The notes under the pieces were generated by a model that ran no database searches, was not told where the DNA came from, and saw only the letters and a list, made by a program, of their open reading frames with translations. The position numbers and the translations under genes were made by a program. From NCBI GenBank assembly GCA_904377855.1, contig CAJFGS010000006.1, positions 1-64,000 on the forward strand: a stretch of DNA of 64,000 nt, in the 5' to 3' direction. Positions 6,541 to 36,128 of this stretch are shown here, one piece after another; position 1 is the first letter of the stretch, and the number at the start of each line of letters is the position of its first letter. The stretch comes from Candidatus Avimonas merdigallinarum (GTDB lineage: Bacteria; Bacillota; Clostridia; Oscillospirales; Acutalibacteraceae).

Positions 6541-6839
6541 AAATAACAGAAAAGCGATGACGGGGACAAGTACAGCGCCTTCCTCATTCAGAGAGCCGCC
6601 GGTTGGTGCAAGACGGCTGAGCGGGCGTTCGAATATCACCTCCCGAGCTTTCCGCTCAAACGGCTTCGGTCGGAGTAAGCGAGAACGGTTTTCCCGCCGT
6701 TATCGGGGATCGCATTCGGCTGGCTTTGCGCCCGCCCGATGCGCTGAGCGGCCCGTTTCCGGGCAAAAAGAGTGGTACCGCGGAGTAGGATTTGGAAGTC
6801 CCTTCGCCTCTTAAAGGAGAGGCGAAGGGGCTTTTTTTC
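6541..6839 (+). ncRNA. T-box riboswitch, isoleucine specifier
   Basis: The leader shows the ordered T-box elements: AGTA of the specifier-loop 5' side (6569-6572), AGAGAG and GGTTGGTGCAA of the stem I head (6590-6611), GAA-T-ATC-A at 6631-6638 on the specifier side, the T-box AGAGTGGTACCGCG (6769-6782), and a terminator stem (6800-6811 with 6818-6829) ending in seven Ts. By position against known leaders (GAA, one base, codon, A), the specifier is ATC at 6635-6637, so the sensed RNA is tRNA-Ile(GAU). Uncharged tRNA would pair with the T-box bulge and favour the antiterminator, turning the operon on during isoleucine shortage. Confidence 0.92.
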
Positions 6840-33107: not shown

Positions 33108-33162
33108 AACCGGGCGGCGTCCGGGCAAACGGGCCGCAAAAGAAAAAACGGATAGGGATTGG

Positions 33163-33197
33163 GCCGGCGCGGGGCATATGCCCCGCGCCGGCTTTTC
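33163..33197 (+). terminator. Terminator of ftsZ
   Basis: A 30-nt perfect palindrome (33163-33192; arms GCCGGCGCGGGGCAT and its complement) followed by TTTTCG. It lies 55 bp past the ftsZ stop. Confidence 0.92.
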
Positions 33198-33295: not shown

Positions 33296-33323
33296 TTGCA
33301 ATCTTTCCGTTTTGTGCTATAAT
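33296..33323 (+). promoter_or_regulatory. Promoter of the corA leader
   Basis: TTGCAA (33296-33301), 16-bp spacer, TATAAT (33318-33323). The start near 33330 gives a leader of about 180 nt before corA. Confidence 0.85.
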
Positions 33324-33329
33324 AGCGAA

Positions 33330-33509
33330 TGGAAAAGCCGGCGATATGGTGATAGGGGAGCGATGCTGTGCAAATCCCCTGCCGGCCTTAAAAACGATGG
33401 AGGTGGAGACGGTGAGCCCTGACCCTGGCCGAAGTTGCCTGAAAAATCACATAACCGGGGCGCGCCGGTTTCCTTAAGGCGGCGCATCCCGGGAAAGGGG
33501 GATGCGCGT
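33330..33509 (+). ncRNA. Structured corA leader, candidate translational riboswitch
   Basis: Visible pairings include a closing helix formed by ATATGGTGAT (33344-33353) with ATCACAT (33447-33453), flanked by CCGG on both sides. Inside it, GGGGA (33355-33359) can pair with TCCCC (33375-33379) and CCGGC with GCCGG (33382-33385). At the end GCGCATCCC (33482-33490) pairs with GGGATGCGC (33499-33507), holding the Shine-Dalgarno GGGAAAGGGGG in loop and 3' arm, 2 nt from the corA ATG. I could not match the leader to the M-box or any other riboswitch class I know. A metal-sensing role is inferred only from corA. Confidence 0.55.
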
Positions 33510-34436
33510 ATGCTGCATTTTTACAAGACGGTGAACGGCCGGATCCGCGAGCTGGAAGAGCTGGAGGACGGCTGCTGGATTGACGCGGTCAATCCGGACG
33601 AAAAAGAGATCAATTTCCTGATTCAGCGGTTTTCCCTGGAGCCGGATTTCCTCCGCGCGTCGCTGGACGAAGAGGAATCCTCCCGTATCGAGAGCGAGGA
33701 CGGGGTCACGCTGATAATCATCGACGCGCCGGTTGCCGAGAAGGGCGATACCGGAATCACCTATTACACGATGCCGATGGGGATTCTGGTGACCAAGAGC
33801 AATGTCATCACGGTTTCCCTGCGGGAAAACACGATAATCGCGGAATTTGCCGAGGGAGTGGTCCGCGGCGTCCAGACCGAACTCAAGACGCAGTTTGTGC
33901 TGAAAATCATCCTGCGGGTCGCTACCCGGTATCTGCAGTACCTCAAGCAGATCGATAAGGTGTCCAACCTGCTGGAACGGCAGCTGCGCAAATCCATGAA
34001 AAACAAAGAGCTCATCCAGCTTCTCGATGTGGAGAAATCGCTGGTGTACTTCTCCACCTCCCTGAAGTCGGACGAGACCACCCTGGAAAAGCTGATGCGG
34101 GGCCGGTATATCAAGCTGTATGAAGAGGATCAGGATCTTCTGGAGGATGTGCTGATTGAAATCAAGCAGGCCATCGAAATGTCCGGCATCTACCTGAACA
34201 TCCTTTCCGGCACCATGGACGCCTTTGCGTCGGTCATTTCCAATAACCTGAATATTGTCATGAAGGTGCTGGCTTCCATCACCATCGTGATTTCCATCCC
34301 CAATATCATCGCCGGGTTTTACGGCATGAATGTGGAAGGCCTGCCGTTATCCCAGTTTTTCTGGTTCCCGATCGTCCTGGCGCTGGCGCTCATGGGCGTG
34401 GTCGGGTTTATCCTCCATAAAAAGGATATGCTCTAA
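33510..34436 (+). CDS. corA: CorA-family Mg2+ (divalent metal) transporter
   Basis: A 308-residue channel subunit; CorA forms pentamers passing Mg2+ or Co2+. A long acidic/helical cytoplasmic domain (about 1-245) is followed by two C-terminal helices, with the GMN selectivity motif in FYGMNVEGLP at about 271-273. The open frame begins at 33435, but ATG 33510 (MLHFYKTVNGRI) is the family start and follows GGGGG closely. It has its own promoter and structured leader and is flanked by terminators on both sides, so it is monocistronic. Confidence 0.93.
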   Translation: MLHFYKTVNGRIRELEELEDGCWIDAVNPDEKEINFLIQRFSLEPDFLRASLDEEESSRIESEDGVTLIIIDAPVAEKGDTGITYYTMPMGILVTKSNVITVSLRENTIIAEFAEGVVRGVQTELKTQFVLKIILRVATRYLQYLKQIDKVSNLLERQLRKSMKNKELIQLLDVEKSLVYFSTSLKSDETTLEKLMRGRYIKLYEEDQDLLEDVLIEIKQAIEMSGIYLNILSGTMDAFASVISNNLNIVMKVLASITIVISIPNIIAGFYGMNVEGLPLSQFFWFPIVLALALMGVVGFILHKKDML

Positions 34437-34897: not shown

Positions 34898-35012
34898 TTG
34901 ACAAGCGGCAGGGGAGTATGATACGATAAGCTTAGTTAGTTTAAACTAACGTTAAAAAGCAGGGGATAGAGAGGGGTTCTTTTTTATTCCCTTAAAGTTA
35001 GTTTACGCTAAC
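34898..35012 (+). promoter_or_regulatory. Promoter with two DtxR-like dyads
   Basis: TTGACA (34898-34903), 18-bp spacer, TACGAT (34922-34927). GTTAGTTTAAACTAAC (34935-34950) is a perfect palindrome at the start site, and GTTAGTTTACGCTAAC (34997-35012) is a near copy 62 bp downstream. TTAG(G)TTAG-n-CTAAC dyads resemble DtxR/IdeR-family metal-regulator boxes. Between dyad 2 and the DUF2325 start lie about 230 bp without a gene, including a hairpin-like CCGG...CCGG plus TTTTTTT at 35107-35130 that could attenuate transcription. Confidence 0.65.
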
Positions 35013-35243
35013 TAAAACGGCGGAATTCTCCGCTTTCTCGGCGTTTCCCGAGGTACCGGAAGGCGGGTCCGCCAAAGCCCGTGGCAAAGGGAGGCCAGCC
35101 GGGCGGCCGGCGGATAAAACCGGTTTTTTTAGGCAAAAGCGCGTCTCCCATGTGGAACACGAACGCACACTGCTTTTCCGTATGCGGGCTGCTAAGCTGC
35201 ACGGTGCGGCGCTGCGGACGCCGGAAGGAAAGGGGTCAAAGCC

Positions 35244-35531
35244 ATGAGCGTAGTTATCGTGGGCGGGAACGAACGGATGGCCTGCCAATATGAGACCATC
35301 TGCAAGGGGTATGGCTGCAAAGCCAAGGTGTTTACCAAGGAAAACGGCTCCCTGAAGAAAAAGATGGGTTGCCCGGATTTGCTGATTCTGTTTACCAATA
35401 CCGTATCCCATAAGATGGTGATCAGCGCCTTCCAGGAGGCGAAGCGCAACAACATCCCGGTGGCAAGGATCCACACCAGCAGCGCCGCAGCCCTGCACAC
35501 CGTATTGTCCGAACACTGCGCCGCTGTTTAA
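35244..35531 (+). CDS. DUF2325 protein
   Basis: A 95-residue protein, MSVVIVGGNERMACQYETIC..., of the DUF2325 family: a Rossmann-like small domain with VIVGG at the start and conserved CPDLLILFTNTVSH and ARIHTSS segments. Function is unknown. GGAAAGGGG precedes the ATG. It is first of three genes (DUF2325-DUF3793-flavodoxin) with 13-bp and 32-bp gaps. The operon's metal-type operators suggest expression under iron or metal stress (inference). Confidence 0.85.
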   Translation: MSVVIVGGNERMACQYETICKGYGCKAKVFTKENGSLKKKMGCPDLLILFTNTVSHKMVISAFQEAKRNNIPVARIHTSSAAALHTVLSEHCAAV

Positions 35532-36096: not shown

Positions 36097-36128
36097 CATA
36101 ATTTTTGACAGGAAAGAGGCATAGGATC

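Follow-up and report, generated by a model that had tools for sequence, protein, structure and literature searches.

The window analysed here, the whole stretch of 64,000 nucleotides, contains a gene for a CorA-family divalent cation channel located after ftsZ and a strong terminator-like hairpin. The hairpin (33161-33194) has a very strong 15-bp stem behind ftsZ, then few T residues. This corA encodes the single CorA found in the host genome; at the thresholds used and in a genome that is 88% complete, MgtE was not found, nor was an M-box in the window leader or the host genome. The promoter, the corA leader and the channel gene comprise the following features.

33296..33323, + strand: sigma-70 promoter with extended -10 (TTGCAA, 16 nt, TGTGC-TATAAT), of a form that recurs in genus relatives
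near 33330, + strand: putative transcription start
33337..33386, + strand: 5' GC hairpin of the leader, variable and not conserved, differing or missing in 10 same-genus leaders
33399..33406, + strand: Shine-Dalgarno (SD) of the upstream open reading frame (uORF), GGAGGTGG, kept in relatives
33412..33477, + strand: uORF with GTG start and TAA stop, putative leader peptide MSPDPGRSCLKNHITGARRFP, conserved in relatives
33412..33426, + strand: codons for Met-Ser-Pro-Asp-Pro, the MgtL-like motif with its Asp4-Pro5 core
33455..33467, + strand: 5' arm of helix A (anti-sequestering), within the 3' end of the uORF
33480..33492, + strand: central strand, the 3' arm of helix A, common to helix B
33482..33507, + strand: helix B, the SD-sequestering hairpin, with arms 33482-33490 and 33499-33507
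33496..33502, + strand: corA SD, AGGGGGA
33510..34436, + strand: corA, CorA-family divalent cation channel (PF01544, E 2.5e-55)

Much of this layout agrees with an earlier sequence-only reading of the same DNA, which had described a strong promoter, seen here as the extended -10 element at 33296-33323 and also in genus relatives; a leader of about 180 nt, the length found in the window; and a final 9-bp hairpin holding the SD 2 nt from the ATG, which corresponds to helix B, whose nine pairs (33482-33490 with 33499-33507) contain the corA SD and end 2 nt before the start codon. The absence of M-box cores was also confirmed, the window and the genome giving no RF00380 match at the gathering score. 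The uORF at 33412-33477 and the competing helix formed by 33455-33467 and 33480-33492 had been overlooked.

Orthologues of corA were gathered from the genus, family, order, class and phylum, and the DNA upstream of them was read. Leaders of the genus differ freely in their 5' part and keep the SD GGAGGTGG, the GTG start and the Ser-Pro-Asp-Pro codons, except that one relative (L011) has Ser-Ser-Asp-Pro. Peptides among the relatives begin MSPDPAGRLC..., MKPDPLSR..., MNPDPYSR..., MDADPGEKR... and MTADPSGK.... With Asp4-Pro5 taken as the core for counting, Ser, Asn, Asp and Lys predominate at position 2, and position 3 is Pro or a small residue, close to half of cases having Ala, Ser, Gly, Cys or Thr there with Asp4 kept; positions 7-9 are often Ser or Gly, then Arg, and the remainder varies. 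Codons for Pro3, Asp4 and Pro5 show synonymous variation. An upstream in-frame GTG at 33403 (METVSPDP) was set aside as a start since it overlaps the SD and is missing from relatives of the form GGAGGTGGCATT-GTG.

When 300-nt upstream regions were searched for uORFs of 8-60 codons with an SD in front and Asp-Pro at positions 4-5, a Met-x-x-Asp-Pro uORF was found before corA in 119 of 255 distinct regions. Dinucleotide shuffles gave a mean of 0.1, reverse complements gave 0, and none of 777 other windows of the same loci held such a uORF; the next commonest dipeptides at positions 4-5 occurred 9 times each. Variants with Glu-Pro, Asn-Pro, Asp-Gly or Gly-Pro, or with the motif shifted, account for a further 34 regions, some perhaps by chance; the acidic-Pro variants include MSPEP, MNPEP and MEPNPEP. 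Counted by family label, the motif reaches at least 23 families, including four from beyond the class. By the criteria used, a sizeable share of corA homologues lack such a uORF, the share being larger in distant groups. An unconditioned DNA-pattern scan of 84,980 genomes with GAGGTGGN{3,6}RTGARNCCTGAYCCT returned 31 matches, of which 25 lie directly before corA (the corA coding match starting 59-172 nt downstream), two run off the end of their stretch and four are unrelated, close to the number of chance matches estimated for this pattern (about four). In the host genome a much looser pattern matched six times, this leader included, and a control pattern also matched six times, so that the loose pattern is uninformative by itself. 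Across class and phylum these comparisons leave a single conserved element, the predicted codons of a leader peptide whose Asp-Pro resembles that of MgtL, and the uORF almost certainly specifies a conserved corA leader peptide.

The closest likeness to this peptide is MgtL, encoded before mgtA in E. coli and Salmonella. Read from the E. coli MG1655 genome, MgtL begins MEPDP... with GGAGG in front, placing Asp4-Pro5 at the same positions as in the window peptide, and both are short SD-preceded uORFs in the leader of a Mg2+ importer with a Met-x-Pro-Asp-Pro start. The EPDP motif of MgtL causes ribosome drop-off at low Mg2+, which turns mgtA on, an effect lost when Glu2 and Asp4 are changed; the output of MgtL is Rho-dependent transcription termination (PMC11282234). 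Competing RNA structures lie downstream of MgtL, as they do here in the genus and close genera, where helices A and B are present; farther away these helices are not universal. However, the acidic-Pro motif of MgtL (residues 2-5) reads SPDP in the window, Glu2 not being kept, so that the window motif has a single acidic residue; the MgtL target is the P-type ATPase MgtA, whereas here it is corA; the output there is Rho-dependent, and here it would be a hairpin that sequesters the SD or a ribosome that occludes the start of corA; and the host belongs to another phylum. The common motif is too short to decide descent, target gene, output and phylum differ, and convergence with MgtL is as likely as homology.

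Three further systems bear comparison. CorL (YsgD), like the window peptide, is encoded by a uORF before corA; in enterobacteria it is tied to intracellular Mg2+, and uORF translation is inversely related to corA expression (PMC11552253). In contrast to the peptide described here, its MG1655 sequence (MDTPSRYWLTILSSRINS) is without Asp-Pro at positions 4-5, starts at TTG and has a Rho output, and its N-terminus, MDTPSR..., is not matched by the uORF studied here. The leader of gamma-proteobacterial corA was first proposed as a riboswitch candidate, the 'corA motif', with examples that are all gamma-proteobacterial (PMC6429828). MgtQ, from a uORF before Salmonella mgtB, offers a translational version: its acidic residues make translation of the very short uORF abort, and the choice between stem-loops decides whether the SD of mgtB is exposed or hidden (PMC8092293). 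It has 8 residues, is intergenic in the mgtC operon, follows a different, three-helix logic and is not reported to have Asp-Pro at positions 4-5. The M-box (RF00380) also controls Mg2+ transporter genes, including in Bacillota, but it is a Mg2+-binding RNA aptamer and was not found in the window or genome. Other Mg2+ transporter genes of the class were also inspected, and a similar uORF was present at 0 of 9 mgtA loci and, with a looser motif, at 2 of 30 mgtE loci; these two class relatives (L321 and L330) have uORFs beginning MDYDPLPILNT... and MDYPDPLPCSK..., and a similar acidic-Pro leader may also control mgtE.

The RNA downstream of the conserved codons was compared in 14 leaders from the genus and close genera, with registers set by hand on the alignment. 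For helix A (33455-33467/33480-33492), 152 of 182 cells are paired, both-sided changes occur at 8 of its 13 pairs and only 2 of 5000 arm permutations were as good; for helix B (33482-33490/33499-33507), 118 of 126 cells are paired with both-sided changes at 4 of 9 pairs, and 285 of 5000 permutations did as well. In these leaders the two helices use a common strand and are mutually exclusive. In a folding test on the window, opening the corA SD costs 4.7 kcal/mol with a ribosome at the uORF stop and 2.7 kcal/mol with one at the start. Across 81 leaders the difference in SD opening exceeds that of shuffles (p 7e-7), its mean being slightly negative (-0.4), and 22 of the 30 leaders whose uORF ends 30-70 nt upstream show the predicted sign. 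Ends of the uORFs range from far upstream to past the corA start, with 53 of 119 falling within 30 nt upstream of corA and 22 overlapping its start. One universal hairpin switch was rejected, because the position of the uORF stop ranges so widely and folding signs are mixed when the stop is closer than 30 nt. Several relatives (L014, L040, L044, L047 and others) have a uORF (MKPDP/MNPDP...) that runs across the SD and start of corA to about +56, with no SD hairpin switch. Where the uORF ends close by or overlaps the start, direct occlusion by the ribosome would be the simpler output. The peptide is the common element and the RNA output varies.

The exact position of the motif, the nature of the target gene and the pair of competing helices suggest a model, which we consider likely, in which MgtL-like destabilisation of the ribosome serves as the Mg2+ sensor and low Mg2+ switches corA on. 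A ribosome would initiate on the uORF at its strong SD and, at high Mg2+, pass Met-x-x-Asp-Pro and reach the uORF stop; its passage across the 3' end of the uORF would melt helix A, leaving the central strand to pair with the corA SD in helix B and keep corA off. At low Mg2+ the N-terminal Asp-Pro nascent chain would make the ribosome stall or fall off (intrinsic ribosome destabilisation). With the uORF's 3' end left free, helix A would form, the corA SD would be released and corA would be translated. In relatives whose uORF lies beside or overlaps the corA start, the translating ribosome may occlude that start directly, with the same sign. From these features we infer translation of the uORF, its abortion, Mg2+ as the signal and the sign of control. 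Several points stand against the model: the window peptide has one acidic residue, Asp4, where MgtL has Glu2 and Asp4; the RNA switch is not universal among leaders, with varied uORF ends and an 81-leader mean that is slightly negative although above that of shuffles; helix registers were set by hand; and a sizeable share of corA homologues lack the uORF.

The sequence-only reading had instead proposed a new riboswitch, and its picture of corA control by a cis-acting, SD-sequestering hairpin at the level of translation, plausibly metal-responsive, stands apart from that class assignment. A leader RNA that binds Mg2+, Co2+, Ni2+ or Mn2+ directly and thereby exposes or hides the corA SD would account for a structured leader, an SD within a hairpin and a divalent-metal channel gene downstream. 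However, Rfam 15 returned nothing for the window leader at gathering scores, with only chance-level opposite-strand matches at E up to 10, and nothing but tRNAs for 19 relatives' loci (from L003-L040); plasmids searched with the leader gave no match. The long-range pairing of ATATGGTGAT with ATCACAT exists in the window and is present in 0 of 10 same-genus leaders, and the CCGG...CCGG pairing falls in the variable 5' part, where it is different, short or absent in relatives. No conserved aptamer domain was found upstream of the expression platform in the 10 same-genus leaders, whose 5' region is unconserved; whole-leader folding was uninformative, being no better than chance (z -1.15, 26 of 200 shuffles equally good). 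Some relatives leave little room for an aptamer, as in L014, whose uORF begins 58 nt ahead of corA and extends into it. What is conserved is the leader-peptide coding sequence, at the codon level and with synonymous variation, and no part of the leader behaves as a conserved aptamer. With no Rfam match, and with relatives lacking both the 5' domain and the long-range pairing, a riboswitch is not supported, and direct metal binding by the leader is very improbable.

Other readings keep the leader peptide and change its role. Coupling of the opposite sign, in which completed uORF translation opens the SD hairpin or allows re-initiation to turn corA on and abortion turns it off, draws on the 53 of 119 uORFs that end less than 30 nt upstream of corA, the 22 that overlap its start and the folding test, where a ribosome at a close stop often frees the SD (L007, L011). 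It is nevertheless unlikely: it would reduce Mg2+ import at low Mg2+, MgtL, CorL and MgtQ all run the other way, and several overlapping uORFs extend to about +56, past the corA start. The uORF could also sense another translational input, such as charged tRNA-Pro, EF-P or ABCF activity, or ribosome-targeting drugs, given that Pro codons belong to the motif and that the ABCF protein EttA eases MgtL translation (PMC11282234), however Pro3 is the replaceable residue and Asp4 the one kept, the Pro codons do not form a run like that of amino-acid attenuators and the target gene encodes a Mg2+ channel, which leaves this reading with little probability. A conserved ORF tied to one gene would be expected of a small protein with a function of its own, for example binding CorA, but conservation stops after five to nine residues, the peptides differ in length and at the C-terminus, and some of the uORFs extend into corA; such a function is extremely improbable. 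Regulation by Mg2+-dependent abortion of uORF translation is preferred; what sequence analysis itself shows is the uORF, the conservation of Asp4-Pro5, the link to corA and, in the genus and close genera, the competing helices.

By these comparisons the leader is probably a new variant, in Bacillota, of MgtL/CorL-type leader-peptide Mg2+ sensing. The broader proposal, of a phylum-wide family of Bacillota corA leader peptides that arrived independently at Met-x-x-Asp-Pro and sense Mg2+ by nascent-chain ribosome abortion, with an output that can be an SD-sequestering switch, steric occlusion or start-codon overlap interchangeably, has in our estimate about an even chance of being correct. No report of such a Mg2+-sensing leader peptide in Bacillota was found in the searchable literature, which leaves out most subscription journals and preprints. 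If true, intrinsic ribosome destabilisation would be a widespread and repeatedly evolved metal sensor, with nascent-chain Mg2+ sensing, so far a matter of a few enterobacterial operons, suggested to occur in at least 23 bacterial families. The proposal also suggests how Bacillota may regulate corA without an M-box, none having been found in the host genome, and the dozens of natural peptide variants are available for testing which residues destabilise the ribosome.

Two further regulatory elements were noted elsewhere in the window. A T-box leader (RF00230) at 6548-6814 scores 108 bits, above the gathering score. Two operator-like palindromes, AGTTAGTTTAAACTAAC at 34934 and AGTTAGTTTACGCTAAC at 34996, lie 62 nt apart (34932-35015) and upstream of two small ORFs, one at 35244 and one at 36105 that looks flavodoxin-like by eye; they are perhaps candidate sites for a metal-responsive repressor.
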